Shown here in pieces: positions 39,592 through 61,984 of a stretch of DNA of 64,000 bases. The position numbers and the translations under genes are program-made. The stretch spans positions 62,001 through 126,000 of the forward strand of contig CP048685.1 in assembly GCA_015698285.1 (NCBI GenBank). Reading direction: 5' to 3'. This DNA is from Candidatus Nitronauta litoralis (lineage in GTDB: Bacteria; Nitrospinota; Nitrospinia; Nitrospinales; Nitrospinaceae). Every line of letters starts with the position of its first letter. Within the stretch, counting starts at the first letter, position 1. Under the pieces are notes generated by a model. That model searched no databases. It was not told the DNA's origin and worked only from the letters and a program-made list of their open reading frames with translations.

Positions 39592-39606
39592 TTGAAGGAG
39601 TGGGGA

Positions 39607-42600
39607 TTGCGAAGTGAGATTCCTCTACAAAGCAATCCGGACGGCATGGAAACCTCCCTGTCATCGCAAATAGAAGGGGAGCCCAAATCCCAGTCCGGAT
39701 GGGCCGATATGGGTCGAGGACTCTTCCTGGGCCTGATATTGCTATTGCTGGTTGTCCTCTTGTCCTGGTGGTCTTTGGAGCAAATTGAGGAAAAAACCAG
39801 GGATGATCTGGAAAGCACCCTCAATACAGTTCTAAACACGACGCACGAAGCCCTTCATATATGGGCAGGTGAACGAAAGGCCGATATTTCTGCAATTATC
39901 GACCAACCGCGATTGCAACAAATAGTTCAGGCGACAGTAAACTCCCGGAAAACCTCCCGCCAGGACCTTCTTTCCAGCCCTCAACTCAATGAATTACGCT
40001 CCCTCTTCCGTGAAACTTTAACCCGACAAGGTTACCTCGGGTTTGCTGTGATCAACCCCCATGGGGTGATCCTTGGAGCAACGGAAGATGCTCTGGTTGG
40101 TGGAAAGCACATCCTTTCCAGAAATGGTGATTATCTCAAGCGGGTTTTTGAAGGTGAAGTCCTGGTGAGTTTACCCATGGTATCTGAAGTCCTGCTCCCC
40201 AACCCTTTTGGGGAATATGAAAAAAATCAACCGACGATGTTTGTGGTTGGTCCTGTCCGGAATGTGGGAGAACAGGTTCTGGGTGCCCTGGCGCTCAGAA
40301 TTGATCCAAACAAGGATTTCACTCGCATTCCCCAATTGGGCCGCATGGGTTTATCAGGTGAAACCTATGGGTTTGGTGGTGACGGGAAACTGCTAACCGA
40401 GAGCCGCTTTGAACAACACCTGATCCAGACCGGTCTTTTAAGACCCGGGCAAGGTGCCATTCTTAATGTCGACATACGGGACCCGGGCGGAAGCCTGGTT
40501 GACGGCTTTCGCCCTACTGTTTCAAGAGAGAAACAACCCCTGACCCAAATGGCCGTAAGCGCTCTGGACCATGAAAGTGGTGCCAATATGGAAGGTTACC
40601 GGGATTACCGTGGAACACCGGTTGTTGGAGTGTGGCTGTGGGATTCTGAGCTGGGTCTGGGACTCACTACCGAAATGGATGTGGATGAAGCTTTCGAGTC
40701 TTTCCGGTCGACGCGGTTCCTGGTAGTCAATACTCTTGCGCTCATTCTTGTTTTTTTCCTGGCATTTTCTGTAGCACAAACTCGGGGACGCACCCGGGCT
40801 CTCCAGCTTGCTCACCAGATACGCGAACGTGAAAACCAGATAACGGCTGTTCTCGACAACGTGGTCGACGCCATTCTCACTATTGACTCCGAGGGATCGA
40901 TCGAATCGTTTAACAACGCGGCGGAGAGAATTTTTGGTTACAAGGACAACGAAGTGATTGGCAGCCAGTTTAAAATTCTCATTGCCCATCAGGATGACAA
41001 TTCAGAAATAGAATCTGACGAAGAGCCCTCGGATTCATTCACCGATTTTGACGCACTCTCCACCAGAAAAGAACTATCGGGTATCCGGGCGGATGGCTCT
41101 ATCTTTCCAATGGAGCTCAATTACAGCCAAGTGGCTTTCGAAAACCGGAGTCTCACAATCGTAATAGTCAGGGACATTAGCGAACGCATAAGGGCTGAAA
41201 AGGAAATCCAGGATGCCAAGGACGAATTGGAAAACCGGGTCCAAGAACGCACTTCGGACCTTGAAAACGCCCTAAAAGCCGTTGAAGCCGAAATCAGTAA
41301 ACGCCAGGCTTTTGAAAAAGAGCTGCAGGATTCCAATGAATTCCTGACAAGTATTCTGGGAAGCCCCACTGACATTTCCATTGTATCAACGGACCTGAAT
41401 GGCAAAATCCTTTACTGGAATCAGGGTGCTGAAAATTTACTAGGTTACAAGGCCGAAGAAATGGTCAATAAGGAAACAGTCAATATCCTCTATCCCGAAG
41501 ACGGGCCATCCCGTGACCTTGCTGCAGAAAAAGCCATGCAGATCGTAAAGACTAAACGAGGAACCAGCTTTGAAGTAGAAGAAATCACCCGTGAAGGAAA
41601 ACGAATCTGGGTGCAGTTGACCCTTTCCCCAAGGCTCAATCATCAGGAGGAAGTAATCGGTATTTTAGGGATCGGTGGCAACATCACCGGACTTAAACAT
41701 ACCGAGGCAACACTAAAAAAACAGTCCACTTATCTGCAAATGCTGGAAGACCTCGCCCACACCTCCAGTCGGGCAGCGAGCCATGATGAGGCTCTTCAAA
41801 CCTGCCTCGATCAGATCTGCACCGGGCTCGACTGGCCAATGGCAAATTTGTTTGTTCCGGCGGAAGATGCGTCAGGCGATTTACTCTGCTCCCCCATTCA
41901 CCACAACAGCGAAACAGCACTGTTACGGAACCTGAGGAAACTGACGGAAGTCACGCGTCTGCCTCGGGGTGAAGATTTGCCGGGTCGTGTTTTTCAAACA
42001 TCTGCACCCTACTGGACCAACCAGGTAGAAGAGGACATTTTACCTGTAAGAGCAAGGGAGGCACGGCGTGCTGAAATAAAAAGCGGATTCGCCTTTCCTA
42101 TCCTCATGGGCACTGAAGTTTTAGGTGTCCTGGAGTTTTTTTCACTTAAAGAGCACAAGCAGGATCAGGAGCTTTTAGAGTTTATGGCCCAGGTAGGCCA
42201 TCAAATGGGACGCATTTTAAATCGCAAACGTGCCGACCGCGTTTTGAAACGCATGCAAAACTTTCTTGGGCTATACAAAGGACTTGCGGAAGCTGCTTAT
42301 CGCTCGGTTTCGCTGGAAGAAGCCCTTCAAACTTCCATTGATCATCTTTGCAACCTCCATAACTGGTCGGTGGGCCATTTAATTAAACCCGACCTGGAGC
42401 ATCAGGAATCTCTGGTAAGCGCGGGTATCTGGCATTTTGACAATCCGGAATCCTCACAAAATTTTCGAAAAGTTTCTGAAGAAATGACGTTTTCGAAAGG
42501 GATTGGATTTCCAGGACTGGTCACTGAAAACCGCGCCCCGGTCTGGCTTAACGATCTGGGTGAAAAAAGCACCTTTGATCGCGCCAGTCTGGCCCGCGGC

Positions 42601-43932
42601 CTTGGGCTCGCCTCGGCCTGGGCCTTTCCCCTCATTTACCAGCAGAAGGTCGTGGGCATATTTGAATGTTATGGAAAAACTGCCGCCAAACCTGATAAAG
42701 ATTTCCTGGAGGACATGCAGGGCATCTGTGACCTGTTGGCCCAGTTGATTCACTTAAGACAACAGGAATCCGAGTCCAATCGGGACACCAACCGCCAGAG
42801 AACCCTTATCCAGCAAGCCCCGGTCGGCATCATGGCATTGAAAACCGATGGCACCATTGTTTCTTTCAACCCTGCCGCCGAATTCATTCTTGGATATGAA
42901 GCCGACGACATTTGTGGAGAAAATGTCTCAGGCATATTGCCAGAGGCCTATAGCGGGGGTTCTTCCTCATGGCTCATCCAGGCAGCAGGAACATCCGGCA
43001 CTTCGAACGCCTCCCTTCAAAGGACCACATTCGGGCTACGTAAAAATGGAACTCCGGTACAACTGAACATCGCCATCAATCACGCACACGGCGAAGACGA
43101 AGACCTTTTGATTGTGATCATGCACTATGTACCACAAGTCGACACCAGACAGGAGAGGCACCTTCCATCTGCACCAACCGCAAAACAGGATCAGCCGGTT
43201 TCCCCCGATCAACCTCTTGACCTTGCCCGCCCGCAAAAACGATTCCCACTGGCCGAGCAATTAACAGAGGTGGGTAACCAGACCATCACCACCGCGCACG
43301 ATTTCAATTCACCCGTGTTTGGCGTGCAACAGCTTGTGAAATCCTTACGCAGTATGGTTCAGCTGAGTGACCACCAGAAAGCGCTGTTCGATTTGCTCGA
43401 AAGAAAATGCCGCCGTATTGGGGAGGGGTTTAAGCAATTAAAGGAATTTTATCGGCCTCATTCAGGAATTGGCGGACCGCTGGATGTAAACGAAGCACTG
43501 GAAGACATCCTCACTCTTAATCAGAAAGTGTTTGAAAACCGACGCATCAAGATTGAAAAACATTACGCAGATAATCTACCCAAAATCGATGCGGTTTCTG
43601 ATCAAATCCATCAGGCATTACAAAATTTGATCCGGCATTCAGAAGAAAGTATTGCGGACCATACCGGAGAAATAATGATCGCAACAGAAGCGGAAGCAGA
43701 TTGGGTAAAAATTTATATTCTGGACAATGGAAACAGTATGGCTCCCGGGTATCTTGAATCATTATTTGATCCGGTATCGGGCAACTCCGCAAACGAGGAC
43801 AAGGAAACCAGCCTGCCTTTACAATATTCGATCAATATCATCAAAACCCACAGTGGCAATCTGGAAGTTTCTCGGCGTGAAGAAAAAGGAAACGTTTACA
43901 CCGTAACCCTTCCTGTTCTGGGCAATGGTTAG
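39607..43932 (+). CDS. Giant membrane PAS/GAF sensor with a degenerate histidine-kinase core
   Basis: About 1441 residues. A TTG at 39607, seven bases after AAGGAG, is the likely start; an ATG at 39646 is the alternative. Order: membrane helix (about residues 36-57), periplasmic Cache-like sensor (to about 365), second helix (about 371-390), PAS (TAVLDNVVDAILTIDSEG), coiled coil, second PAS (SIVSTDLNGKILYWNQGAE), two GAF domains (each opening with DEALQTCLDQIC or EEALQTSIDHLC), third PAS (APVGIMALKTDGTIVSFNPA), and a kinase-like end. The H-box reads TAHDFNSPVFGVQQL with its His at 43297. The ATP site is eroded: the N-box Asn is His (NLIRHS, 43636), G1 reads DNGNS in place of DxGxG (43723), and the G2 glycines are missing (SLPLQYSINI). 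It may therefore signal without autophosphorylation. The channel-like gene follows closely. Confidence 0.88.
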   Translation: MRSEIPLQSNPDGMETSLSSQIEGEPKSQSGWADMGRGLFLGLILLLLVVLLSWWSLEQIEEKTRDDLESTLNTVLNTTHEALHIWAGERKADISAIIDQPRLQQIVQATVNSRKTSRQDLLSSPQLNELRSLFRETLTRQGYLGFAVINPHGVILGATEDALVGGKHILSRNGDYLKRVFEGEVLVSLPMVSEVLLPNPFGEYEKNQPTMFVVGPVRNVGEQVLGALALRIDPNKDFTRIPQLGRMGLSGETYGFGGDGKLLTESRFEQHLIQTGLLRPGQGAILNVDIRDPGGSLVDGFRPTVSREKQPLTQMAVSALDHESGANMEGYRDYRGTPVVGVWLWDSELGLGLTTEMDVDEAFESFRSTRFLVVNTLALILVFFLAFSVAQTRGRTRALQLAHQIRERENQITAVLDNVVDAILTIDSEGSIESFNNAAERIFGYKDNEVIGSQFKILIAHQDDNSEIESDEEPSDSFTDFDALSTRKELSGIRADGSIFPMELNYSQVAFENRSLTIVIVRDISERIRAEKEIQDAKDELENRVQERTSDLENALKAVEAEISKRQAFEKELQDSNEFLTSILGSPTDISIVSTDLNGKILYWNQGAENLLGYKAEEMVNKETVNILYPEDGPSRDLAAEKAMQIVKTKRGTSFEVEEITREGKRIWVQLTLSPRLNHQEEVIGILGIGGNITGLKHTEATLKKQSTYLQMLEDLAHTSSRAASHDEALQTCLDQICTGLDWPMANLFVPAEDASGDLLCSPIHHNSETALLRNLRKLTEVTRLPRGEDLPGRVFQTSAPYWTNQVEEDILPVRAREARRAEIKSGFAFPILMGTEVLGVLEFFSLKEHKQDQELLEFMAQVGHQMGRILNRKRADRVLKRMQNFLGLYKGLAEAAYRSVSLEEALQTSIDHLCNLHNWSVGHLIKPDLEHQESLVSAGIWHFDNPESSQNFRKVSEEMTFSKGIGFPGLVTENRAPVWLNDLGEKSTFDRASLARGLGLASAWAFPLIYQQKVVGIFECYGKTAAKPDKDFLEDMQGICDLLAQLIHLRQQESESNRDTNRQRTLIQQAPVGIMALKTDGTIVSFNPAAEFILGYEADDICGENVSGILPEAYSGGSSSWLIQAAGTSGTSNASLQRTTFGLRKNGTPVQLNIAINHAHGEDEDLLIVIMHYVPQVDTRQERHLPSAPTAKQDQPVSPDQPLDLARPQKRFPLAEQLTEVGNQTITTAHDFNSPVFGVQQLVKSLRSMVQLSDHQKALFDLLERKCRRIGEGFKQLKEFYRPHSGIGGPLDVNEALEDILTLNQKVFENRRIKIEKHYADNLPKIDAVSDQIHQALQNLIRHSEESIADHTGEIMIATEAEADWVKIYILDNGNSMAPGYLESLFDPVSGNSANEDKETSLPLQYSINIIKTHSGNLEVSRREEKGNVYTVTLPVLGNG

Positions 43933-43940: not shown

Positions 43941-46163
43941 ATGATGAACCAGCCTCCGGACCTGAATGAAACATCCAGGAAACGGCTCAATGATCCACGA
44001 CAGGTTGAATTAGCCGACACTGGTAAAAAGAGATTTTCACCAAAACTCCTGTTCAGGGTTTTTTCAAGCCTTTCTGTTTTGGGCCTGTTATTGTCTTCCT
44101 CCCTTTGGTTCCAATATCTCAACAACAAAGAACAGGCAATCCAGGTTGCTAAAACCAATGCCAGCCTGATCACAAGTCATTCAGCAGAAGAAATTGACAC
44201 TTTGTTGACTGCTATCACTCCTTTGGCAGACAGCCTTGCCAATGAGTTAAGCGAAGGTGTTGTTGACCGGAAAGAGTTACTTCCCAGGTTGCGGAAGATT
44301 CTCGATAACAACACCGGTATTCGAGGTGCAGGAGTCGCCTATGCCCCCAATCAATACGATCCAGAAATTCGCCTTTTTGCTCCCATGTACATCCGTGAAG
44401 GCTCCAGCCTGAATTTCATGCAGGTTGAATCCCTTTACGATTACACTCTGCAGGAACACGACTGGTATTCAATTCCTTTCGCCAATCGTAGCCCAATCTG
44501 GACAGAGCCGGAACTGGACCCGGAGTCCGGAGATATCGTAGCCCGCTATGGAGTTCCATTTTACAAACCGGGAAACAACCGCCGTGGAGAACCCGCAGGG
44601 GTGGTGTTCCTTCAGTTACTTCTGAATCAGATAAAAAACCTGGTTGGGTCACTAGACCTTGGAAAAACCGGTTACGGATTTATCCTTTCAAAAAAAGGCC
44701 GCTTTCTTTCTCACCCAATCGAAAAATATGTCAAATCGGGACTGAGCCTTTTTGATCTTGCCGACCAGCAAAAGGATGGCACGTTGCGAATGGTCGGAGC
44801 CCAGGTCATCACTGGGAAAAGTGGATCCGTTGAACATGTCAACCCCGCTACGGGTCAGTTGTCGTGGATGTTTTTTGAACCTATACCATCGACAGGCTGG
44901 TCCATGGTGGTTGTCTTTGTGCGCGAGAAAATTGGTGCCAACACGCAGCAATTGAGGCAGCAGGAAATCTGGATCGCCATGAGCGCGGTGATCGTCCTGT
45001 CTTTATTGTCGGTCCTTCTCACTCGGGCTTATCTCGGCGGGTTGCGTCGCATCTGGACCCTGATGCTGACCATTTCGGTCCTGTTCATGTGCGGCATTGC
45101 ATTCATTTGGCATTTGACCATTCGCGATCCTATCAATGAAGAGAAACGTGTCGTCACAATTGTCGATCGTGCAGGTCTGGACAATTTTGTAACCTCTCTC
45201 AAAAAATCCATGGGAGACAGCACCGGGCATCCACCGGTTTTTATTCCCACCGGATTGTTCGTCCAGTCAATGGAGTTTGCGAATGCGAACAACACAATCC
45301 TCACGGGCTACCTCTGGCAAAAGTTCACACTGGGAGAGCATGACAATATCGAGCGTGGCTTTTTATTTCCTGAGTTGTCTTCTTCCGACGATGTTGATAT
45401 CGAGGAGCAGTTCCGGCGCAAGGATAGTGATACCGAGACAGTCCAATGGTATTTCCGCGTTGTGCTCAGGGAAAGGTTCGATTATTCGCATTACCCTTTT
45501 GACAAGGTAAATATCAGGATTCGGTTATGGTCAAAAGATTTTAATAATAATGTTATCCTTATACCAGATCTGGAAGCGTACACTCTGATCAACCCAACCT
45601 CTCTGCCTGGCCTGGAGAAAGATTTATTTCTTCCGGGATGGACTTTCCAGGAAAGCTATTTCGATTACAAGTACAACACCTTCACCACTGACTTTGGCAA
45701 AATCAGTCACCGCGGTCATGAAACTCTTCCAGAAATGTATTTTAATATCGTTTCGCGACGCAACTTTCTTGGCCCCTTCATTTCGAACCTGATCCCGATC
45801 ATTGTCGTTTCCTTCATGCTGTTCGGTCTCCTCATGATCGGAACAAAGCATTCTGAAAAAAGCAGTTGGCTCAATTTTAACGCCCAGGATATCCTCGCTT
45901 CCTGCGCCGCCTTGATATTCGTAATCATCCTCGCCCATATAGATCTGCGTGGCACTCTCGCGTCAGAAGGAATCCTGTATCTGGAGTACTTTTATTTTGT
46001 CATGTACATCGCTACCTTGATGGTCACCGTAAACGCCATCCTGTTTTCATGGGATATCCAGCTCAAATTGATCCAGTATGAAGACAATCTGATTCCAAAA
46101 CTGATGTTCTGGCCGCTCATCACAGGATGCCTGCTTATCCTGACTCTGGTCATTTTTTACTGA
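43941..46163 (+). CDS. Double-Cache sensor fused to a pentameric ligand-gated ion channel-like module
   Basis: About 740 residues. The start is one of adjacent GTG/ATG/ATG codons after AGAGGG; 43941 is used. Helix 1 (about 39-59) leads to a periplasmic double-Cache domain (70-335, with WYSIPFANRSPIWTEPELD and ARYGVPFYKP). Helices at about 344-362 and 372-392 flank an Arg-rich cytosolic turn. A periplasmic beta-rich domain (400-605) contains RFDYSHYPFDKVNIRIRLWS, which resembles the Pro-loop of Cys-loop-type receptors without the cysteines. SRRNFLGPFISNLIPIIVVS then looks like the start of M1, and M2 (650-667), M3 (678-704) and a C-terminal M4 (721-740) follow. This is the topology of prokaryotic pLGICs with extra N-terminal domains. 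The gene lies 8 bases after the sensor gene. Ligand and ion are unknown. Confidence 0.75.
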   Translation: MMNQPPDLNETSRKRLNDPRQVELADTGKKRFSPKLLFRVFSSLSVLGLLLSSSLWFQYLNNKEQAIQVAKTNASLITSHSAEEIDTLLTAITPLADSLANELSEGVVDRKELLPRLRKILDNNTGIRGAGVAYAPNQYDPEIRLFAPMYIREGSSLNFMQVESLYDYTLQEHDWYSIPFANRSPIWTEPELDPESGDIVARYGVPFYKPGNNRRGEPAGVVFLQLLLNQIKNLVGSLDLGKTGYGFILSKKGRFLSHPIEKYVKSGLSLFDLADQQKDGTLRMVGAQVITGKSGSVEHVNPATGQLSWMFFEPIPSTGWSMVVVFVREKIGANTQQLRQQEIWIAMSAVIVLSLLSVLLTRAYLGGLRRIWTLMLTISVLFMCGIAFIWHLTIRDPINEEKRVVTIVDRAGLDNFVTSLKKSMGDSTGHPPVFIPTGLFVQSMEFANANNTILTGYLWQKFTLGEHDNIERGFLFPELSSSDDVDIEEQFRRKDSDTETVQWYFRVVLRERFDYSHYPFDKVNIRIRLWSKDFNNNVILIPDLEAYTLINPTSLPGLEKDLFLPGWTFQESYFDYKYNTFTTDFGKISHRGHETLPEMYFNIVSRRNFLGPFISNLIPIIVVSFMLFGLLMIGTKHSEKSSWLNFNAQDILASCAALIFVIILAHIDLRGTLASEGILYLEYFYFVMYIATLMVTVNAILFSWDIQLKLIQYEDNLIPKLMFWPLITGCLLILTLVIFY

Positions 46164-46257: not shown

Positions 46258-46448
46258 ATGCCGGTAGGATGAGAGAGCTTTCTCTCGGTCTGAAAATCCA
46301 ACCGGAAGATTATGGAACCTCATTAACCACGTTCCAGAATCAATCGGATGGATCCCCCTGCCATGCTTTCTGCACGGATTCCTTAGGCCACCCGCTTCCT
46401 ACAATCCGGAAGCTCGCTCACCGTTATTTCCCTGAATTGAAGGAGACC

Positions 46449-46961
46449 ATGTTTTCCGACACCCCAAAACCACGGAACCAAGGATCAGCCAGGCAAAGTT
46501 TTCTTTTGCTCATGATCCTTTTTCTGGCCCTCATACTCAACGGATGCAATGTAGGGGCACGAACCATGGCCTTATTTGGTGGAGACTTGAACGTGCAGGT
46601 CGCTATCAGCGAACAAGCCAACCATAACCAACCGTTGATGGTGGATCTTGTGCTGGTCAACGATTCTGAGCTTCTCAAAAAATTGATGGAATTACCGGCG
46701 GATGAATGGTTTCAAAAGAGGGAACAATTTAAACGGGACTATCCGAAACGAACCGGGTTTGAATCCTGGGAATGGGAATGGACTCCAGGTCAAAAAGTTC
46801 CTGACCTGATCTTGCCGATTCGTGTCAAAGCGGAAGCTGGGTTAATTTTTGCTCGCTACTTTACAGAAGGCGATCACCGGGCCCGGTTTGATCCGCTAAA
46901 AAATATCTTCATTGAGTTTAACGAAGAAAGTTTCCAGGTCACCGTAACCCAGGGAACCTGA
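46449..46961 (+). CDS. tssJ: TssJ-like outer-membrane lipoprotein of the T6SS
   Basis: A 170-residue lipoprotein starting at the ATG with AGGAG three bases upstream. The signal peptide (SFLLLMILFLALILNG-C) ends in a lipobox. The mature part has LNVQVAISEQANHNQPLMVD, LVLVNDSELLKKLMELPADE and WFQKREQFKRDYP. This follows the TssJ pattern of a transthyretin-like sandwich in which 'V.L..L.D...F......FF' recurs. Similarity to classical TssJ is modest, and the call rests partly on position directly before tssK. TssJ anchors the TssLM envelope complex to the outer membrane. Confidence 0.7.
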   Translation: MFSDTPKPRNQGSARQSFLLLMILFLALILNGCNVGARTMALFGGDLNVQVAISEQANHNQPLMVDLVLVNDSELLKKLMELPADEWFQKREQFKRDYPKRTGFESWEWEWTPGQKVPDLILPIRVKAEAGLIFARYFTEGDHRARFDPLKNIFIEFNEESFQVTVTQGT

Positions 46962-47007
46962 ACAGTAACCTGTCTGTTATCAGGCGCAAATTTAAAGGAC
47001 CGGAATA

Positions 47008-48348
47008 ATGGTCGACGCACGCAGAATTCCATTTCCAATTCAGTGGCATGAGGGCATGATGCTGGCCCCCCAGCACTTCCAGCAATCGGCCTCACGTCAT
47101 GAGGAATTACTGCATTATCATTTAATGTCTTCCAACCCGTTTCATTGGGGAGTCCGTCGTTTAAAAATCGACCCTGTCCTGCTGGTCAGTGGTAAATTCC
47201 GGATCCTGGAGCTAGAGGCGATCCTGCCTGATGGCCTGATTGTAGAACATGGGCATTTAGACGACACATCGGCCCTCGAAATAGAGTTGGAAGAGTTTGC
47301 TGAAGACATCCGGACCACCCCCCTATTGATCCACCTCGCCCTTCCGGAAAAAAAAGTAGGGACCTCTTTCAAGGGCGACCTGGCACGCTTCGACTCCATT
47401 GAAGGGAGGCCCGTCTCCGATGAAAATACCGGAGACAACGAAATCCCCATACCCAGATTAAAACCCCGGCTCCTGCTTCTCGCCACAGACGAGCCACCGC
47501 AAAAATACGTGAGTTTTCCTCTCGCTGAAGTCACATACAAAAATGAGACATTTGCCCAAACAGACTACCTTCCCCCAAGCCTGGCCATCTCATTAGGTTC
47601 TCCATTGGGGGAATTGTGCCAACAGATTTCCCAGCGGCTGCGTGAAAAAGCCATTTACCTTTCGGAACAGGTGCAGTCGCCGTCGTCATCGGCGGGCGCA
47701 CCTATGATTCTCGAAACAAAAAACACCATTAAAAGCCTGGTGGCTAATCTACCTCAGTTCGAGGCTGTATTGAATACCGGCGTGTCACATCCCTTCCCAC
47801 TGTACGTTTCATTATGCGGGCTGGTTGGGGAAATGGCGGCTCTCGGTACTGGAATGGTGCCACCGGTTCTTCCTGCATACAATCACAACGACATTCGGTT
47901 TTCTTTCGATACAGCACGTGAATTCATTTTCCGCATGATCGAAGAAGGCATCAACGAAGCCTATACCGGTTACCCGTTTACCTGGGTCGACAACCTGTTT
48001 GCTCTGAACTTTTCCGAAGCCTGGATGAAACAAAAACACGTTTATCTGGGAGTACGCGGACCTTCCGGAATGGGAGAAAAAGACCTTGTTAGCTGGATAG
48101 AAAAAAGCTGGATTGGGACCGTCAATAAAATCCCTTCCATGAGGGAAAAACGCATACTGGGTCCAGAACGCAAACCCATCGAAGGCGACCGCGACATCAT
48201 CCCGGCGCGCGGAGTGGTGTTGTTTCAACTTACAGTCGATCCGGACTTTATTGAACCCGAACAACCCCTTCAGATTTTCAACACTGCAGACAAAACGGAT
48301 GCTGGACGTCCTATGGAAATTCTGCTCTACGTAAAAGCCAACACCTGA
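47008..48348 (+). CDS. tssK: T6SS baseplate subunit TssK
   Basis: A 446-residue cytosolic protein that links the baseplate to the TssLM membrane complex. The N-terminus IPFPIQWHEGMMLAPQHFQQ is the family signature. The middle (SNPFHWGVRRLKIDPVLLVS, LEAILPDGLIVEH) and the C-terminal domain (LQIFNTADKTDAGRPMEILLYVK) agree with TssK order and length. AAAGGACCGGAATA lies before the ATG. A small hairpin follows the stop, then the first vWA gene. Confidence 0.93.
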   Translation: MVDARRIPFPIQWHEGMMLAPQHFQQSASRHEELLHYHLMSSNPFHWGVRRLKIDPVLLVSGKFRILELEAILPDGLIVEHGHLDDTSALEIELEEFAEDIRTTPLLIHLALPEKKVGTSFKGDLARFDSIEGRPVSDENTGDNEIPIPRLKPRLLLLATDEPPQKYVSFPLAEVTYKNETFAQTDYLPPSLAISLGSPLGELCQQISQRLREKAIYLSEQVQSPSSSAGAPMILETKNTIKSLVANLPQFEAVLNTGVSHPFPLYVSLCGLVGEMAALGTGMVPPVLPAYNHNDIRFSFDTAREFIFRMIEEGINEAYTGYPFTWVDNLFALNFSEAWMKQKHVYLGVRGPSGMGEKDLVSWIEKSWIGTVNKIPSMREKRILGPERKPIEGDRDIIPARGVVLFQLTVDPDFIEPEQPLQIFNTADKTDAGRPMEILLYVKANT

Positions 48349-48372
48349 AGCCGCTCGTCCTAAGCGACGGCT
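48349..48372 (+). other. Hairpin directly after tssK
   Basis: AGCCG and TCG (48349-48357, one bulged C) can pair with CGA and CGGCT (48365-48372) around a 7-nt loop, one base after the tssK stop. No U-run follows, so it is unlikely to be a complete terminator. It could stabilise or process the mRNA between the tss genes and the signalling genes. Confidence 0.35.
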
Positions 48373-48519
48373 CATCTCAATGGTTCTCTAATGGGTATCT
48401 CAAAAATTACTTCTGGTCACGAGCCCGCTCCGATTTTTTGGTGGGGCAAGCTGCCGAAACGGAAACTTCCGAAATAATTGAGATCCCCTTATAAACCCCT
48501 CACCGCAAGGAGACTCCAC

Positions 48520-49224
48520 ATGAACCGACGACCCGGTGGCGAAATGGCCACCCGGCCACTGCATTTCATCTGGATAGCCGACTGCTCAGGTTCCATGGGA
48601 GTGGACGGTAAAATTCAGGCTCTCAACAATGCCATTCGTGAAGCCATCCCACACATGCAGGAAGTGGCCGATGAAAACCCGAATGCCCAGGTATTGGTAC
48701 GTGCCTTGCGTTTCAGTACTGGAGCCCAGTGGCACATCACCCAACCAACACCCATTGCCGATTTTAAATGGGAAAACCTCAATGCAGACGGCGTAACAGA
48801 CCTGGGTCAGGCGCTCAACATGGTGGCTGAGCAACTTCGCATTCCTCCCATGACAGACCGTGCCTTGCCTCCTGTTCTGGTTCTCATTTCAGATGGTCAA
48901 CCTACTGACGATTTCAATGCAGGATTGAAAACCCTGCTCCATGAACCCTGGGGCAAAAAGGCGGTAAGGGTCGCAATTGCCATCGGTGAAGATGCCGATC
49001 ACGAGGTATTGCAAAAGTTCATTGGAAATCCAGAGTTCCAACCTTTGCAGGCGAACAATCCAGAAGCGCTCAAAAATAAAATCAAATGGACCTCTACGGT
49101 CGTTTTGAAAGCCGCTTCGGCACCGACAAGCCAGACGGAAGACACCCAGACCCTGGGTAATGTTCCCATTCCCAAGGCACATGACTCGAATACTGAGGCT
49201 ATTTCCGCCGGAGACATCTGGTGA
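48520..49224 (+). CDS. TerY-like von Willebrand factor A domain protein (first triad)
   Basis: A 234-residue cytosolic protein starting at the ATG with AAGGAG seven bases upstream. The vWA domain has a complete metal site: ADCSGSMG (Asp21, Ser23, Ser25), the Thr in NADGVTDLGQA and the Asp in LISDGQPTDDF. The arrangement and length match TerY of tellurite-resistance gene clusters. TerY-type proteins form the 'TerY-P triad' with a PP2C phosphatase and a kinase, exactly the kinds of gene that follow. Its stop overlaps the PP2C start. A role as metal-dependent scaffold of the phospho-switch is inferred from that family. Confidence 0.88.
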   Translation: MNRRPGGEMATRPLHFIWIADCSGSMGVDGKIQALNNAIREAIPHMQEVADENPNAQVLVRALRFSTGAQWHITQPTPIADFKWENLNADGVTDLGQALNMVAEQLRIPPMTDRALPPVLVLISDGQPTDDFNAGLKTLLHEPWGKKAVRVAIAIGEDADHEVLQKFIGNPEFQPLQANNPEALKNKIKWTSTVVLKAASAPTSQTEDTQTLGNVPIPKAHDSNTEAISAGDIW

Positions 49225-50138
49225 AAACAGAACCTGACTCCGCCTGGCGGGCGTTCGGGAAAAGCGTTAGAGGTGCCTCGCATATCCGGGATAACAGGCC
49301 CAACCAGGATGCAATACTCTGGTCTTCAGGAGAAAGTGATGGGCTGCCTTTGGTCATGGCGTTATCAGACGGTCACGGCAGTCAACGCAGTTTCAGGAGC
49401 GAAACCGGTGCCGCATTTGCGGTGGATGCCATTTCCACCTGTCTGACTGACTTTGCCCGACAATTGTTCCCGAGTAGTCAATTCAAGGCTCTTGAACAGG
49501 ATGCCCGTAAAAACCTTCCACGCGAACTGGAATACCGATGGAAACGCACCGTTCTGGATCATCTGACAACAAACCAATTTTCAAACGAAGAAATTGAGAC
49601 CCTTTACGTCTATCAGGAAAAAAACGAGGGAGAACCCCCAATACTTAACCCTTTCCTGGCCTATGGGGCGACAGCGCTAGGTGTACTCGTCACTCAATCC
49701 TACCGGCTGTATTTACAGCTTGGTGATGGTGACATGCTCAACGTGTATTCCGACGGAAAAACAGAGCGACCTCTCCCCGATGACCCCAGGCTGATCGGTA
49801 ATGCCACAACGTCTCTATGCGCGCGCAAAGCGGCTCAGGATGTCCGATTGAGTATTCAATTCGGAGACAGACAGATTCCTGAATTGATACTTGTATCCAC
49901 AGATGGCTATGCGAATTCATTTAAAAATGATGAAGAGTTTTTAAGGGTCGGGCCGGATATTCTGGACATCATCCGCACCGACGGTCTTGATTATATCGAG
50001 CGTCACCTTGGCGACTGGCTTGAAGAAACCACGCAGGTTGGCAGCGGTGATGACATCACCCTCGGCATTCTGTCCAATTCAGTCGTAAACCTGCCTGAGG
50101 TCGAAACCCTTAAAACGACACAACTGTCTACAGAATAA
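49221..50138 (+). CDS. PP2C-type protein phosphatase (first triad)
   Basis: A 305-residue cytosolic metal-dependent Ser/Thr phosphatase. RDNRPNQDA (metal Asp30), ALSDGHGS (Asp50, Gly51), LQLGDGDMLN, LVSTDGYANS and GSGDDITLGIL (Asp277, Asp278) supply the usual PP2C metal ligands, so it should be active. The GTG start overlaps the vWA stop by four bases. It would reverse the action of the kinase encoded two genes on. The next gene starts directly after its stop codon. Confidence 0.92.
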   Translation: MKTEPDSAWRAFGKSVRGASHIRDNRPNQDAILWSSGESDGLPLVMALSDGHGSQRSFRSETGAAFAVDAISTCLTDFARQLFPSSQFKALEQDARKNLPRELEYRWKRTVLDHLTTNQFSNEEIETLYVYQEKNEGEPPILNPFLAYGATALGVLVTQSYRLYLQLGDGDMLNVYSDGKTERPLPDDPRLIGNATTSLCARKAAQDVRLSIQFGDRQIPELILVSTDGYANSFKNDEEFLRVGPDILDIIRTDGLDYIERHLGDWLEETTQVGSGDDITLGILSNSVVNLPEVETLKTTQLSTE

Positions 50139-52364
50139 ATGCACCCCCTGCCTCGACAACAGCTGAAATCCATTCTCGATGACTACGGAATCGGGCTCTG
50201 TGATGAACCCAAACGTATTGAAGGATTGCTCCGCGATTTTTGTGGGAAATACCGCCGGGAGATATTTGTCCTCGTTAGTGCCCTGAAAGAAGGTATCGCC
50301 TCAGATCTGCGCGCTTCTCACCCCAGTGCACCCCGGGACCTTCTTGTGATGAAACTGATTCAACGCTTGAAAGAAAACCTTGCACTTTCAGAACCTGCTG
50401 CACGTTGGGCGGTAGAAACCTGGGCACTTGCCCTAAACATTATCACTGCAGACGAATTAAAAATTGAAAAGGTTGAACGAGCTCCGGAACAATCCTCCCT
50501 CTTCCCGGAAACACCAACACCCGTCCCTGTTGAAACCGTCCATCCAACAGCAATTCCAGATCCGAAATTACCGAATCGTGTCACTGTATCCAAACGCGGG
50601 GATGCCGACTTTAAATCTATTAATGCCGCGTTGCAGGCTTGCGCAGAAGGTGGGAAGGTCAAAATCCTGCCTGGAATTTACAAGGAATCGGTCACACTCA
50701 ACAAATCGATAGAAGTTGTTGGTGAGGGTCCCTCACATGAGATTGTCCTCATCGGGCAGGGAAAACCAACGATCAAAATGGAGACTGGAAAAGCAGCGGT
50801 AAGGGGTTTGACGTTACGCGCTTCCGCTGCACAGTCCAACTCCCAGGAACCCACGGTAAACATCCCCCGGGGAGAACTGTTGATCGAAAACTGTGAAATC
50901 GTATCCGCTTCAGGACCTTGTGTTTCAATCGAAGGACCAGGCACTCAACCCACCATTAGACAATGTAAAATCCGCAATGGCCTGTTGCAGGGTATTGTTA
51001 TTTCCAAAGGAGGACAGGGGCGGTTCGAGGATTGCGAAATATCAGGGCACACCTCCACCACAATCCATATCAGGGAGCAAGCCAATCCCCTGTTCAGGAA
51101 CTGTAAAATCCATAGTGGAAAAGAAAACGGAATTGTTGTCACTGATGGTGGACTGGGCGTTTTTGAAGATTGTGACATTTCCAAAATGTCGAAAGCAGCA
51201 GTCGTCATTCAGGATGAAGGGGACCCTGTACTCAGACGCTGTGTCATTCATCACGGGCGTGGCGGCGTACTCGTTTATCAGAATGGAAAAGGTGTACTAG
51301 AAGAATGCGACCTGCATGACAACCACTGTGCGGGTATTGAAATTTTCAATCAGGGTGATCCTCGTCTGACAGCTTGCCGCATCCGCGACGGTAAAACAGC
51401 GGGAGTTTTTATTTATAAAGAAGGACGCGGAGTACTCCGTGCCTGCGATATCAGTGGAAATCAGGCTGCGGGTGTCGCAATAAAACAACAAGCGGACCCC
51501 ACCCTGGTCAATTGCACGATCCACCACAACAAGGAAAGCGGATTGATCGTATTTGAGCAGGGCCTTGGACGCCTTGAAGAATGCGACATTTTTGAAAACG
51601 GTCTTGCTGGAATTGAGCTTAAAGAACAGGCCCAGCCGCAACTGGTCCAATGCAAAATCCACGACGGAAATGGAGGCGTTTTCATCTACGACCAGGCAAA
51701 AGGTTCGTTCAAACAATGCGAAATCTTCGCCAATCGATTTTCCGGTGTGGAAATCAAAAAACACAGTGACCCCGAATTCATAGAATGCCGGATTCACGGT
51801 GGTAAAAGTGGCGGAGTCTTTATCTATAAAAATGGAGCCGGTCAATTCACCTCCTGCCGCATTTTTGCCAACGCTGCTCCAGGATTAACAGTAAAACAAA
51901 GCGGTGATCCCCGCTTGAAAGACTGCCAGATCTATGGGAACCATGACTGCGGAATTGCTGTGTACGAAGGTGGCAGAGGAAAATTCAAACATTGCGAAGT
52001 ATTCGACAACCACCTTTCCGGAACCGAAATAAAACAAGAAGGGTTGCCTTTCTTTTCATATTGCACACTTCGCAACAACCAGCGTCACGGTGTACATCTT
52101 CTGGAAGGCGGGAACGGTAAATTCCGCCATTGCGAAATTTCCCGAAATGATGGCTGTGGAGTTGAAGTTGCCACTCAGGCTAATGCAGAGTTCGAACACT
52201 GCGGAATCGTTCTGAATAAAAGGAAAGGTGTAATCGCTGCAAAATACTCAAACGGTTTTTTCGACAACTGCACCCTGACAGGAAATGTCAAAGGAGCCTG
52301 GGGATTAGATCTTAAAAGCCGTGTCCGCTGGATGAAACCTGAAAAGGCGGCGGACCCGAAATGA
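50139..52364 (+). CDS. Right-handed beta-helix repeat protein of the T6SS signalling block
   Basis: A 741-residue protein without signal peptide. Residues 1-115 form a helical module (RIEGLLRDFCGKYRREIFVL, then LSEPAARWAVETWALAL) that I have seen at the N-terminus of assorted bacterial signalling proteins but cannot name. A Pro-rich linker leads to residues 145-735, a parallel beta-helix opened by a pectate-lyase-like motif (DADFKSINAALQACAEGGKV, ILPGIYKES). It then has a 46-residue double-turn repeat: 'C.I..N...GI.I...GDP.L..C.I..G...GV.IY..G.G'. No catalytic residues are evident. It starts right after the PP2C stop and overlaps the kinase start by four bases, which places it inside the triad as a likely binding scaffold or substrate. 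Confidence 0.88.
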   Translation: MHPLPRQQLKSILDDYGIGLCDEPKRIEGLLRDFCGKYRREIFVLVSALKEGIASDLRASHPSAPRDLLVMKLIQRLKENLALSEPAARWAVETWALALNIITADELKIEKVERAPEQSSLFPETPTPVPVETVHPTAIPDPKLPNRVTVSKRGDADFKSINAALQACAEGGKVKILPGIYKESVTLNKSIEVVGEGPSHEIVLIGQGKPTIKMETGKAAVRGLTLRASAAQSNSQEPTVNIPRGELLIENCEIVSASGPCVSIEGPGTQPTIRQCKIRNGLLQGIVISKGGQGRFEDCEISGHTSTTIHIREQANPLFRNCKIHSGKENGIVVTDGGLGVFEDCDISKMSKAAVVIQDEGDPVLRRCVIHHGRGGVLVYQNGKGVLEECDLHDNHCAGIEIFNQGDPRLTACRIRDGKTAGVFIYKEGRGVLRACDISGNQAAGVAIKQQADPTLVNCTIHHNKESGLIVFEQGLGRLEECDIFENGLAGIELKEQAQPQLVQCKIHDGNGGVFIYDQAKGSFKQCEIFANRFSGVEIKKHSDPEFIECRIHGGKSGGVFIYKNGAGQFTSCRIFANAAPGLTVKQSGDPRLKDCQIYGNHDCGIAVYEGGRGKFKHCEVFDNHLSGTEIKQEGLPFFSYCTLRNNQRHGVHLLEGGNGKFRHCEISRNDGCGVEVATQANAEFEHCGIVLNKRKGVIAAKYSNGFFDNCTLTGNVKGAWGLDLKSRVRWMKPEKAADPK

Positions 52365-53680
52365 GCCAAATACTCGACACAAAACGCGAACTGATCGCAC
52401 AAACCTCAGGACTGACCTGCAAGGTAAAACGCTTGCTCGGTTCCGGGGGGCAAGGCGAAGTGTATGAAGCCCGATTAAACAACCAGCCCGTAGCTCTAAA
52501 ATGGTACCACCCCCAGGTCGCCACCTCTCAACAGCGTAAGGCTCTTGAAATGCTGGTGGCAAAAGGACCTCCGGATCGTTCTTTTCTCTGGCCTCTGGAT
52601 ATTGTCACCACTCCGGACTTGCCTCACTATGGCTATCTCATGCCGTTACGTGACCCGCGTTACCAGGGCATCGCCGACTTGATGAAAGGACGAATCGATC
52701 CAACTTTTCGTATTCTGGCCACGGCAGGCATGAACCTTGCCAGTAGTTTTCTTCAATTGCATGCACGCGGGATGTGCTACCGGGACATTGCGTTCGGAAA
52801 TGTTTTTTTCGATGCCGATACCGGCGAAGTCCTGATCTGCGACAACGATAATGTCAGTGTGGATCACGAAGAAAAAGGCAGCGTTCTCGGAACGCCACGT
52901 TTCATGGCACCTGAGGTGGTTCGAGGTGAAGCGTGGCCCAGCACACAAACGGATTTATTCTCTCTGTCAGTCCTCCTGTTCTATATGTTCATGGTTCACC
53001 ATCCGCTGGAAGGCAAACGAGAGGTTGAGATCAAATGCCTGGACCTGCCTGCAATGACACGCCTCTATGGTGAAAACCCGGTTTTTATTTTCGACCCCGA
53101 AAACAAAACCAATCGTCCACACAAAGAGTTTCAGAAAAATCCCCTGGCATTCTGGCCCGTGTATCCAGAGTTTTTGCGGAAATTATTTGTACGTGCCTTC
53201 ACTGAAGGCCTGCATGACCCATCCAGACGCGTGCGGGAAAGCGAATGGCGTAACACCCTGATACGCCTGCGGGACTCCATTTTGTATTGCGCAGATTGTG
53301 GGACCGAAAATGTTTATGATCGGGAATCGCTTGGAGAAGGCGCTCAATCCAGCGGAGCCTGCTGGTCCTGCCAAAAACCTATTCCCCTGCCCCCCCGTAT
53401 CCGGATTGAAAAATCCATTATCATGCTGAACCATGACACCCATGTATTCCCGCACCACGTCGATGACCAGAAACTTTATGATTTTTCCCTGCCTGTTGCC
53501 GAGGTCAATCAGCACCCGGACAAACCCGGAATCTGGGGACTCAAAAACATTTCGAGAGACAAGTGGGTCATGACCACACCGCAGGACGAAACTCTCGATG
53601 TTCCTCCCCACAAAACAGTTCCTTTGTTAAACGGCACCCGTATTCACTTTGGTAATAAACAGGGGGAGATACGGTCCTGA
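52361..53680 (+). CDS. Ser/Thr protein kinase with zinc ribbon and C-terminal beta domain (first triad)
   Basis: A 439-residue kinase. The glycine loop is LLGSGGQGEVYEA (26-36), the ATP Lys is VALKW (Lys47), the catalytic loop YRDIAFGNVFF (Asp142, Asn147), the metal site CDNDN in place of DFG (Asp161) and the activation end GTPRFMAPEV. These make an active enzyme likely, of the unusual TerY-P type. A zinc-ribbon-like pair, YCADCG and CWSCQ, follows near residue 310. The last 90 residues (NQHPDKPGIWGLKNISRDKW, LLNGTRIHFGNKQGEI) resemble an FHA-like or related beta domain. It overlaps the beta-helix gene by four bases; about 80 bases separate it from the second vWA gene. Confidence 0.9.
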   Translation: MSQILDTKRELIAQTSGLTCKVKRLLGSGGQGEVYEARLNNQPVALKWYHPQVATSQQRKALEMLVAKGPPDRSFLWPLDIVTTPDLPHYGYLMPLRDPRYQGIADLMKGRIDPTFRILATAGMNLASSFLQLHARGMCYRDIAFGNVFFDADTGEVLICDNDNVSVDHEEKGSVLGTPRFMAPEVVRGEAWPSTQTDLFSLSVLLFYMFMVHHPLEGKREVEIKCLDLPAMTRLYGENPVFIFDPENKTNRPHKEFQKNPLAFWPVYPEFLRKLFVRAFTEGLHDPSRRVRESEWRNTLIRLRDSILYCADCGTENVYDRESLGEGAQSSGACWSCQKPIPLPPRIRIEKSIIMLNHDTHVFPHHVDDQKLYDFSLPVAEVNQHPDKPGIWGLKNISRDKWVMTTPQDETLDVPPHKTVPLLNGTRIHFGNKQGEIRS

Positions 53681-53761
53681 TTTGCCTTTGTTTGTTTTTC
53701 CCTCCTGGTTAAATTAAACTGGTGACGTTTCAACCGATCCGTTTAATTCCAGGCTTCCGAC

Positions 53762-54847
53762 ATGCCCCAATACATTTGCAGTCAGTGCAATAAAGAGTAC
53801 GACACCATAACTGCTGACGGTTTTTGCACCAACCAGCCGGAATGCGAGTTTGGTACAGGCTGGCTTCGGGAAAAAGGTTCGGCTAAATCCGCCGATGACT
53901 CCGGACTGACTCCCCTTGAGTTCGGAAACGAAGCGGGACTGTGCATCCTGATGATGGACGGCTCGTTTTCAATGAACGAACCGGCTTTTCCTGAGAGTGA
54001 TTATCCTGGCACACGTTACAAACTGGTCGCCATGAATGCAGCGGGCGGAATCTGGTCATTAAAGTCCATGACCCATCGCGAAAGTGCCTACCTGGCGTTA
54101 GCTGTGTTTGGTGGAGAACCAAAGCTGGTCTCAATAAAAAGTGTGGAAGATATTTTTAAAGAACACGACACACCAGAAGCGTTGGCCGACTCCATTCAAA
54201 AAACTCTTGAAAACGAAACACCCGATGCCCGTTTCACAAATATCAACTCAGCTGTTCAGTTGGCGTATGAAATTAAACAGGCATTCATCGGCGGAGACCT
54301 CTCCGGTTTTGGCGGACCCACAGATTTCAAACCGGTTATCCATCCTGTCGTTCGAGGTAGCGAGGAAAGGGAAGAGTTTATTGACATCCCTAATGTGCGA
54401 GCGCTCATATACACGGATGGTGAACACAATGTCACCTCCGCCATCAAAAATCCGTTTGCCGGTGATGAACAATCTGTTTTGATCACAGCGTTCATCGGTG
54501 AAAAAGATGCGAAAGGTGTTTCCCAAATGCAGGGACTGGCCTGCACCTGCCCCAAACACGGACCTGCCAACGGATTTTTTCTGATCGATTCACCCGAGCG
54601 GGTACAAACGCTTCGTGGAATTTTCCGTATGGCTTCAGGTGCATCAGGGTTCTGCTCGGCCTGCCTTCATGTGGAACAAAAGGGCCTTGAAATAACAGAA
54701 CCCGAAAGCGACCTGGAAGAAGCGGGAGAATCCGGGGCCGGTCCGGCAGAAACTGGAGTCGACTCCGAAAACCCATCTGACAAAGAAGAGTCCATCGTTG
54801 ACACACCCGCCCCCCAGTCTGAAACCTCCTCATCGCAAGGCACTTGA
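53762..54847 (+). CDS. vWA domain protein with N-terminal zinc finger (second triad)
   Basis: A 361-residue cytosolic protein. A short zinc-finger-like start (CSQC at 6-9, then Cys22 and Cys28) precedes the vWA domain with LMMDGSFSMNEP (Asp66, Ser68, Ser70), the Thr in ARFTNINSA and the Asp in IYTDGEHN, a complete metal site. The last 55 residues are a Glu/Ser/Pro-rich disordered tail. It differs from the first vWA protein in finger, spacing and tail, so the two are not recent copies. Its stop overlaps a TTG in the next frame; the next gene probably starts at the ATG nine bases further on. Confidence 0.88.
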   Translation: MPQYICSQCNKEYDTITADGFCTNQPECEFGTGWLREKGSAKSADDSGLTPLEFGNEAGLCILMMDGSFSMNEPAFPESDYPGTRYKLVAMNAAGGIWSLKSMTHRESAYLALAVFGGEPKLVSIKSVEDIFKEHDTPEALADSIQKTLENETPDARFTNINSAVQLAYEIKQAFIGGDLSGFGGPTDFKPVIHPVVRGSEEREEFIDIPNVRALIYTDGEHNVTSAIKNPFAGDEQSVLITAFIGEKDAKGVSQMQGLACTCPKHGPANGFFLIDSPERVQTLRGIFRMASGASGFCSACLHVEQKGLEITEPESDLEEAGESGAGPAETGVDSENPSDKEESIVDTPAPQSETSSSQGT

Positions 54848-54855
54848 CTCCTTTT

Positions 54856-55701
54856 ATGGAACTCAAAAATTCCTGCACACTTATTGGAGAAGTTCTTTCG
54901 TCATCCGGCCCAAGAAAAAAGACACTGGAAGACAATTCTCCTCACAATGTTGAACTGGGAGAAGATTCCGGGGGAATCTTGATGGTAGGTGGGAACACCG
55001 GCTGGATGTGGGTTGCGGATGGAGCCAGCGACATGCACTCCATCGGTGGGTACTCTTCACGCACCCTTGCCCAGGATCTTGGTCGTTATTTCACCGGGCA
55101 AATTTTAGAACACCCGGAAGAGTCTCCCGTTACGCCGGTATTAATTTCCAATCTTTTCGATAATGCTGTGAGATTAACCACTGACTCATGGAACTCCAAG
55201 TTGAAGCACGATCAACATGCAGCTTCCGATTTAAAACAAAAACTTTCAGCATGGCAAAATCAATCGGGCGGCGCAGAAAAAGCCAATATCTTTTTTGAAT
55301 TTGCTTCGACATTCTCCTCAGCCTGCCTGGATTCAAAAGGTCAGCTTACCGGTATCAGTATTGGGGATTCGTATCTTATGAGTAATCCCAACGGGTTGCT
55401 CCAGTTTTTCGCCCTAAAAAAGGGGGCCGTGACACTCCGACTGAAACTGGAAAACAACCACTTACAGTTTTCTGTTTCCGTGCCTTCCCCTGAAAACTTT
55501 GAAAGTCAAAACGTTCACCTGGTTGCTCTGGCAACGGATGGTACACGCGAAACCTTTCAGCACCTTCAAAATACCCTCCCTCCCGAATTCTTTTTATCCC
55601 CCAAAAGTTTTGCCGGGTTCCGTAAGGCAATTGGATCAACCCTTCCAAAAACCCAGGACGACAAAACACTGGCCTGGCTTGGGCGGATCAATGCTGGTTA
55701 A
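54856..55701 (+). CDS. Divergent PP2C-like phosphatase (second triad)
   Basis: A 281-residue protein. PP2C landmarks are present in weak form: KKTLEDNSPH where R.NQD is usual, MWVADGASDMHSIGGYSS in place of SDG.G, SIGDSYLMSN for the GD.R strand, LVALATDGTRE for the late DG, and TQDDKTLAWLG matching the terminal DD.T. Enough acidic residues remain that activity is possible. A TTG at 54844 overlapping the vWA stop is an alternative start; the ATG at 54856 is preferred. The kinase-like gene starts inside its last codons. Confidence 0.7.
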   Translation: MELKNSCTLIGEVLSSSGPRKKTLEDNSPHNVELGEDSGGILMVGGNTGWMWVADGASDMHSIGGYSSRTLAQDLGRYFTGQILEHPEESPVTPVLISNLFDNAVRLTTDSWNSKLKHDQHAASDLKQKLSAWQNQSGGAEKANIFFEFASTFSSACLDSKGQLTGISIGDSYLMSNPNGLLQFFALKKGAVTLRLKLENNHLQFSVSVPSPENFESQNVHLVALATDGTRETFQHLQNTLPPEFFLSPKSFAGFRKAIGSTLPKTQDDKTLAWLGRINAG

Positions 55702-56614
55702 AATCGGCAATAAAAAACTCGATTTCAATCCTGATGTCATATGCTGGCAGCATCAATCATCACCCCTGACACGGTTCGGCGTGTGGTCCTCTGATTCTGG
55801 CCCAATTTTTGTTAAACGTTTCAGTGAGAAACCTGCCGGGTGGGATCTGCTAAAAACCATTAAAGGCAAAAAACTTCACAACACCCCAACTGTATTGGCA
55901 CTTTTTGAGGGAAAAAAAGAATACTTTGCCTTTTTTGAGTGGCTCCAAGGTGAAATTTTGAGCCAGATACTCCAAAAAGGGAAAACAAAAGAGTTTTTTG
56001 GCGTTGAGGGGCTACAAATAGAGCAGAAAAATCATTTAATCATAAGCATTTATGGAACTTTCTCCAACCTGCACCGCCTGGAGTTCTGGTACCCGGACCT
56101 GGACTTCAAAAATGTGTTTATTTCCCCATCCAAGTCCGGTTTTCGGGCCTGTTTAATTGATTTGGACAGCTGTGTAGGTTTTGGAGAACCGGCGCTCCCG
56201 GACCAGGTTTCACAGCGCTATTGGGAGGGATTGATCACAACTTACAAGGAAGCCGGAAAACCCTTTCTAAAAAAGGGCCTGAATGAATTTCACCGCGATA
56301 TTTCAGCCCATGGCAGATCCCTCAATCAATCGATGCTTCTCCTGTTCGCCTATGCCATTCAAAGAATAGGAAAAGTCCCGCCTGAAGCCCCCCTCTTTTC
56401 ACCAATGATATCGCCACAAAATCCTATTTCAAAAGAAGTTAGAAGGTTACATAAAGGTTGGTCAGGCAACCAGAATCTGGAAAAAGACCTGCATATCTGG
56501 CTGGCAAATCATTTGAAAATAACGCCTGGCGAACTTACCAATATCACCTCCCGTTTGACTCCATCCTTCCCAACAGGAATCCGATCTTTCTTTTCCAGGT
56601 GGCTCGGGAACTGA
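55691..56614 (+). CDS. Atypical kinase-like protein (second triad)
   Basis: A 307-residue protein from the ATG at 55691, which overlaps the PP2C-like stop by 11 bases; the frame is open further upstream without support. Kinase features are FVKRF (candidate ATP Lys42), the hinge-like FAFFEWLQGE, a catalytic loop WYPDLDFKNVFI (Asp136, Asn141) and IDLDSC in place of DFG (Asp157). There is no clear glycine loop. The DxxxxN...IDLD pattern is closest to WaaP/Kdo-kinase- and RIO-like atypical kinases, unlike the first triad's kinase. It ends about 160 bases before tssL, in an A+T-rich gap. Confidence 0.68.
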   Translation: MLVKIGNKKLDFNPDVICWQHQSSPLTRFGVWSSDSGPIFVKRFSEKPAGWDLLKTIKGKKLHNTPTVLALFEGKKEYFAFFEWLQGEILSQILQKGKTKEFFGVEGLQIEQKNHLIISIYGTFSNLHRLEFWYPDLDFKNVFISPSKSGFRACLIDLDSCVGFGEPALPDQVSQRYWEGLITTYKEAGKPFLKKGLNEFHRDISAHGRSLNQSMLLLFAYAIQRIGKVPPEAPLFSPMISPQNPISKEVRRLHKGWSGNQNLEKDLHIWLANHLKITPGELTNITSRLTPSFPTGIRSFFSRWLGN

Positions 56615-56691
56615 GGTTTTTCGCCTGCAACCGGTATTTTGCCAATATGCTATAAATCCTTTTATTTCAATCGAATATTCAAAAAAGTTTA

Positions 56692-56719
56692 TTGAAATTT
56701 TAATTAATTATGGTATAAA
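56692..56719 (+). promoter_or_regulatory. Possible internal promoter for tssL-tssM-tssA
   Basis: TTGAAA (56692-56697) and TATAAA (56714-56719) are 16 bases apart within a markedly A+T-rich 100-bp gap, about 58 bases before the tssL start. This would let the structural genes be expressed apart from the signalling genes. Confidence 0.45.
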
Positions 56720-56776
56720 TAGTTCCAACCGATAATAAATGTAATAGGCAAAAAACTCTTAAGCCAAGGCATTCCC

Positions 56777-57640: not shown

Positions 57641-57662
57641 TTAGATATCAGGCGAACATAAA

Positions 57663-61850: not shown

Positions 61851-61885
61851 GGCGAAAAGAAAATTTGAAAAGACACGGAAAAACT

Positions 61886-61984
61886 ATGGCAACCACAATC
61901 CTTTTCAGTACTTCGCAAAGGGGTTATCGGAGCCAGAAAAAATCATATGAGGTCAACCAGAAACAGGCAGGCTCTGATCTATGA
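61886..61984 (+). CDS. Possible 32-residue protein coupled to tssA
   Basis: The frame begins MATTILFSTSQRGYRSQKKS and ends GSDL with its TGA inside the tssA start (ATGA overlap). It is basic, polar and has no recognised family. ACGGAAAA upstream is a weak ribosome binding site. The coupling geometry is the main support; it may be a leader that helps tssA translation, or chance. Confidence 0.3.
   Translation: MATTILFSTSQRGYRSQKKSYEVNQKQAGSDL

Follow-up and report, generated by a model that had tools for sequence, protein, structure and literature searches.

A double Cache receptor fused to a pentameric ligand-gated ion channel-like module in Candidatus Nitronauta litoralis

Background

The window analysed here is a stretch of 64,000 nucleotides of contig CP048685.1 of Candidatus Nitronauta litoralis. 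Between a large sensor gene and a type VI secretion system (T6SS) it holds an open reading frame that had been read as a Cache sensor joined to a module resembling the pentameric ligand-gated ion channels (pLGICs). This locus raises two questions: whether the C-terminal half of the protein is a pLGIC, and, if it is, with which of its neighbours, the sensor or the secretion system, it works.

The gene and its Cache half

The frame is open from 43938/43941 to 46163 on the + strand, its product is 740 aa long, and the start shared with the sister species (L023), ATG 43944, is directly preceded by a ribosome-binding-like GAGAGGG. A chance reading frame is excluded by a full-length orthologue (85% identical) in a second species and by the 37 full-length fused proteins that align with it. 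The genome is a single contig of 3.9 Mb, and profile matches to the Cache-fused channel family were found in one place only. The layout is TM1, double Cache, TM2, TM3, beta-sandwich with a YPFD Pro-loop, and M1-M4 (Table 1).

Table 1. Coordinates in the window of the Cache-channel gene, its parts and its neighbours
Feature	Position	Strand	Remarks
Sensor: TM-Cache-like region-TM, PAS x3, GAF x2, degenerate HisKA/HATPase	39592..43932	+	8-11 bp upstream of channel
Cache-fused pLGIC-like subunit, 740 aa	43941..46163	+	conserved start ATG 43944
TM1, about residues 34-60, beginning a long helix into the Cache	44040..44120	+	hydropathy, AlphaFold2; 37/37 fused members
Double Cache sensor, residues 63-325, periplasmic by prediction	44127..44915	+	Pfam, PDB sequence match, Foldseek
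Hairpin of TM2, short basic loop and TM3 linking Cache to channel, residues 337-391	44949..45113	+	hydropathy, AlphaFold2
pLGIC-like extracellular beta-sandwich, residues 433-607; Pro-loop YPFD 518-521, pre-M1 Arg 607	45237..45761	+	
M1-M4, residues 610-633, 648-672, 679-703, 717-739	45768..46157	+	
T6SS cluster	46269..63802	+	judged a neighbour, outside the channel system

Both marks of dCache_1 membership, a Pfam score above the cut-off (59.3 bits against 45, E 5.3e-16, over the whole domain) and a dCache fold, are present. The closest solved Cache domains by sequence are the Methanosarcina kinase sensors 3LI8/3LIB (PDB 3li8, E 8.6e-19), and the predicted Cache fold matches 3li9 in Foldseek with a TM of 0.85. 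The motif common to dCache_1AA and dCache_1AM domains contains an Asp (D173 in PctA, D235 in PctD), to which the AA subfamily adds an Arg (R126 in PctA; PMC10104139). When the protein is aligned to 3li8, Gln225 stands at the position of the Asp and His173, two residues before Trp175, at that of the Arg, while the aligned family has N/E/S and T/Y/H in these columns. The dCache_1AA / dCache_1AM motif is thus absent from this Cache, and as its Asp is replaced the ligand class is not predictable from dCache motifs. The Methanosarcina domains mmHK1S-Z2/Z3 (PDB 3LI8/3LIB) also differ in having a kinase as their output.

By hydropathy and in the AlphaFold2 model, the Cache is followed by helices at about residues 343-361 and 371-389, so that the original count of two helices flanking the Cache and a third ahead of the beta-rich domain was right. 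TM2 is found in 37/37 and TM3 in 36/37 of the fused relatives. In stand-alone channels, L003 for example, TM3 has its counterpart in the N-terminal anchor, and the fused protein therefore looks like two whole membrane precursors linked end-to-end.

The channel half

Beyond TM3 lies a beta-rich region (residues 404-607), followed by four helices in M1-M4 order according to both hydropathy and AlphaFold2. From the genome collection 60 loci of the family were gathered, of which 51 C-terminal halves were aligned to build a profile. Against all PDB sequences this profile found pLGICs throughout the 60 matches listed (best E 0.0025), including GLIC, GABA-A subunits and a GLIC/GLRA1 chimera. In hhalign it was compared with three canonical bacterial pLGICs, themselves found with PF02931, and matched them over 273 columns spanning the ligand-binding domain and M1-M4, through M4 (probability 96.6%, E 5.9e-10). 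The C-terminal half modelled alone as a monomer reaches a pLDDT of 84.5 and a pTM of 0.76, and a Foldseek comparison of this model with the PDB gave only pLGICs among the 50 matches listed (GABA-A, GLIC, DeCLIC, sTeLIC and glycine receptor; E about 1e-13, TM up to 0.77). A beta-sandwich with four transmembrane helices in the pLGIC fold and a significant profile relationship to known members, two marks of the superfamily, are both found here. The reading of the protein as Cache plus pLGIC is supported by profile-profile comparison, by the family HMM against the PDB and by fold comparison alike. A lack of any pLGIC match to residues 400-740 had been named as the outcome that would speak against it; the searches were run, and profile, hhalign and Foldseek all matched pLGICs.

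Single-sequence scans would by themselves have led to a false rejection. Neither Neur_chan_LBD (PF02931) nor Neur_chan_memb was matched in Pfam scans of the 740-aa protein or of six relatives; Pfam and NCBIfam gave no match on the C-terminal half, Pfam detecting the Cache half alone; and PF02931 has no match in the genome of the window. As the family profile and the fold do match pLGICs, this silence is not read as absence: it is an annotation gap, from models that do not cover this branch, and not the failure of a defining feature. Since the tested Pfam models miss the branch, annotation pipelines are likely to overlook the family.

The signature residues named by Tasneem et al. (PMC549065), an aromatic-Pro-x-Asp motif, a basic pre-M1 residue and a proline in M1, are all kept in the 740-aa protein. 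The YPFD segment singled out earlier as Pro-loop-like (Y518, P519, F520, D521) is such an aromatic-Pro-x-Asp loop, with its Pro invariant (51/51) and its Asp in 50/51 of the aligned family. The pre-M1 Arg607 occurs in 47/51 (K in 2/51) and Pro619 of M1 in 39/51 aligned members. The family has invariants of its own as well, namely Arg670 at the outer end of M2 and Glu682, Phe684, Tyr685 and Tyr689 in M3, Arg670 and Glu682 being present in 51/51. In M2, the registers given by HMMER and hhalign lie four residues, i.e. one helical turn, apart, and residues 653, 656/657, 660, 664 and 667 form one face of the helix in both. No conserved charge occurs at the cytoplasmic selectivity position of M2 in the aligned family (n=51), for which reason we make no call on ion-charge selectivity.

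Spread and age of the fusion

Members of the family are carried by Nitrospinota (four carriers), cyanobacteria, Methanosarcina and other groups. Among the 37 fused proteins, once close pairs were removed, pairwise identities of the Cache and of the channel are correlated (Mantel rho 0.76; 0/999 permutations). The Cache of the window protein shares up to 40% identity with channel-fused Caches of cyanobacteria, against 27-32% in strong matches to channel-free Caches of its own order. The maximum-likelihood tree requires at most 4 changes between the fused and the stand-alone state, an upper figure because L049 is scored as stand-alone merely for having a contig that begins within the gene. Correlated divergence and few changes on the tree suggest that Cache and channel have for the most part been inherited as a unit, and judging from these comparisons the fusion is old and has been co-inherited across groups.

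Two loci carry tandem duplicates with two family genes adjoining, a fused pair in Phormidium (L044, 1522-3675) and a fused gene with a stand-alone one in Anaerolineae (L037, 2643-4763); such tandem genes would permit heteromeric channels. An archaeal member of 1267 aa (L038, 5268-9071) has a much longer N-terminal part ahead of the channel, and a Dependentiae member (L069, 9109-10395) lies 28 bp upstream of a gene for an Nramp-type metal transporter.

Relation to known channels

Extra N-terminal domains on prokaryotic pLGICs, Cache-like ones among them, were already known, as the original prediction held. In the available passages of Tasneem et al. 2004 (PMC549065), some prokaryotic pLGICs are described with N-terminal MCP-N and Cache domains, Methanosarcina, Cytophaga and Microbulbifer are named as carriers of the fusion, and other prokaryotic pLGICs are said to share operons with PBP or Cache genes. 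This was the sole relevant paper on Cache and pLGIC in the literature searched, in which no experimental work on Cache-fused pLGICs was found. We detected family members in 7/31 Methanosarcina-group genomes, several with frames of about 700 aa. A pLGIC detectable with PF02931 was found in 0/16 genomes of the group, which is weak evidence of absence given that the PF02931 control was positive nowhere. With members of this length present and no PF02931 pLGIC found, the Methanosarcina genes of those passages almost certainly belong to the family described here.

The ART-LGICs of those passages resemble the window protein in carrying a Cache N-terminal to a ligand-binding domain and four-helix core in one chain. 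The window protein differs from them by its Nitrospinota carriers. Its region ahead of the Cache is a transmembrane segment with a long helix. The same passages make no mention of the two extra helices between Cache and ligand-binding domain, of a sensor-gene partner or of a T6SS neighbour. DeCLIC of Desulfofustis, a fold match to the C-terminal half (E 3e-13), is likewise a prokaryotic pLGIC with a large extra N-terminal module in the periplasm; its lobes are, however, calcium-binding-domain-like and extend the extracellular domain (PMC12664993, PMC9897478), whereas in the window protein a dCache receptor forms the module and brings along a membrane anchor and a TM hairpin of its own. According to a 2025 paper, DeCLIC alone among pLGICs has an N-terminal domain that has been characterised in part. 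GLIC, ELIC and the GABA-A receptors share the extracellular beta-sandwich, Pro-loop, pre-M1 Arg and M1-M4 with the window protein, at about 14% identity to its Pfam-silent C-terminal half; GLIC and ELIC have no Cache.

The type of fusion has thus been known since 2004 and the window protein is another member of it. The present analysis adds a 7-TM layout in which a dedicated hairpin separates Cache and ligand-binding domain, the pairing with a sensor in Nitrospinota, the evidence of long co-inheritance of Cache and channel, and the rejection of a link to the T6SS.

Probable sensor partners

The conserved neighbour of the channel in Nitrospinota is the upstream sensor and not the T6SS: a homologous sensor gene lies 8-17 bp upstream of the channel in 4/4 Nitrospinota carriers. 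The sensors of the two distant carriers measure 859-860 aa and comprise TM, Cache, TM, PAS, GAF and GAF, the kinase core being absent; the orthologues at L024 and L025 stop ahead of any kinase domain. In the genus of the window two further PAS domains and a kinase core are present, the latter retaining the H-box (AHDFNSP) and the Asn of the N-box. Its G-boxes appear degenerate on inspection (DNGNSM / SLPLQYSI in the window, DNSNSM / SLPLQYSI in L023), which makes kinase activity doubtful, and the sensor may be a pseudokinase. The PAS/GAF protein is likely to be a functional partner of the channel. It is possible, if rather unlikely, that in Nitrospinota the two form a two-protein receptor in which the sensor, its Cache outside and its PAS and GAF domains inside, would lack a working kinase and the pLGIC would be the output, gated jointly by PAS/GAF and Cache signals; we know of no description of an ion channel gated by cytoplasmic PAS/GAF and periplasmic Cache signals together.

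Sensors of other kinds accompany the family elsewhere. At L060 and L065, and by homology at L058, a gene for a separate dCache receptor lies 18-40 bp from the stand-alone channel. Genes for periplasmic binding proteins adjoin L052 and L049 (Peripla_BP_6) and L072 (SBP_bac_3), and L067 adjoins an SBP_bac_3 domain joined to one of glycine-transporter type. These neighbours suggest that channels of the family operate together with sensors of small molecules in the periplasm. Whether by old fusion or by gene neighbourhood, the family ties the pLGIC to nutrient or signal receptors (dCache, periplasmic binding proteins), which offers a route to the native ligands of prokaryotic pLGICs.

The receptor genes at L058 (9007-11421), L060 (6127-8176) and L065 (2857-4914) lie 3' of the stand-alone channels, and their products are three homologues of about 680-800 aa, each combining a (d)Cache-like sensor with two TMs and a helical portion in the cytoplasm. 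At L085 (1114-3382, - strand) a canonical pLGIC gene recognised by Pfam overlaps an upstream ORF for a stand-alone Cache-like receptor, a partnership as in the fused family that may be compared with Rhodopseudomonas in Tasneem 2004 (PMC549065); the same genome also carries the fused member L033.

Proposed mechanism and alternatives

The Cache, the pLGIC-type extracellular domain, the order and fold of M1-M4, the gating residues and the long co-inheritance of the halves are established. We consider it probable that the product is a subunit of a homopentameric, ligand-gated prokaryotic pLGIC and that its N-terminus carries an entire double-Cache receptor, membrane anchor included. Five such subunits, to extrapolate from monomer models, would assemble around M2. 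A periplasmic small molecule would bind the Cache, and perhaps a site in the beta-sandwich too; the change would pass through the TM2/TM3 hairpin to the extracellular domain and on to the contact between Pro-loop and M2-M3, at which signal the M2-lined pore would open, with ion flux or depolarisation as the putative output. In this marine bacterium of the Nitrospinaceae, a nutrient-type sensor domain is joined to a relative of the neurotransmitter-gated ion channels of animals.

Could the protein instead be a pLGIC-derived receptor that no longer conducts, keeping the pentameric fold with M2 as a scaffold and signalling by protein contact? M2 has small residues in its cytoplasmic half, a nearly invariant Phe660 and strong hydrophobicity, all compatible with this, as is the conserved adjacency in Nitrospinota to a sensor protein, a possible contact partner. 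Hydrophobic gates are, however, normal in pLGICs; the family-wide conservation in M2 and M3, with Arg670 and Glu682 in every aligned member, is as expected of a pore; and no full-length sensor homologues were found beside the channel in carriers outside Nitrospinota. A non-conducting receptor is therefore improbable in our view.

Less probable still is that ion flux through the channel is an input to the adjacent T6SS, as the original prediction had suggested. The gene does lie between a large sensor and a real T6SS, with genes for TssK, DotU/TssL, IcmF/TssM, ImpA/TssA and VipA/TssB, a TssJ-like gene by position, and further genes for VWA, PP2C, a right-handed beta-helix protein and a Ser/Thr kinase, and channel and T6SS are 105 bp apart on one strand in two species of one genus (the window and L023). 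The T6SS adjoins the channel in this genus only, however, and a promoter-like site, TTGACA-18-TAGCAT (46228-46257; a consensus match only), precedes the T6SS genes within the gap. Channel and T6SS also occur each without the other: within the genus itself, a third genome (G001) carries a TssK cluster without channel or upstream sensor; G013, G014, G016 and G018 have TssK and no channel; and in the two more distant carriers channel and T6SS are on separate contigs (G052) or the channel occurs with no TssK or T6SS detected (G054), a pattern that counts as a whole, single absences being weak in draft genomes. Neither TssK nor the other T6SS genes adjoining in the window were found within the fetched flanks of channel loci outside Nitrospinota. 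The link to secretion is unsupported and the adjacency looks incidental. The protein might also be a Cache-type receptor of the ordinary kind, with a C-terminal membrane domain that resembles pLGICs but is unrelated to them. The missing Pfam match and the identity of only 13-15% to solved pLGICs would fit this reading, but searches by profile, by profile-profile comparison and by fold agree in contradicting it, as does the gating motif found throughout the family, and they leave it hardly credible.

Two features of the window stand apart from the Cache-channel protein favoured here. The run of VWA, PP2C, beta-helix protein and Ser/Thr kinase genes at 48478-53680 suggests a T6SS controlled by phosphorylation. 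On the - strand at 27383-36448, a 2415-aa exoprotein with a TPS domain and a ShlB/FhaC-type transporter form a two-partner secretion pair.
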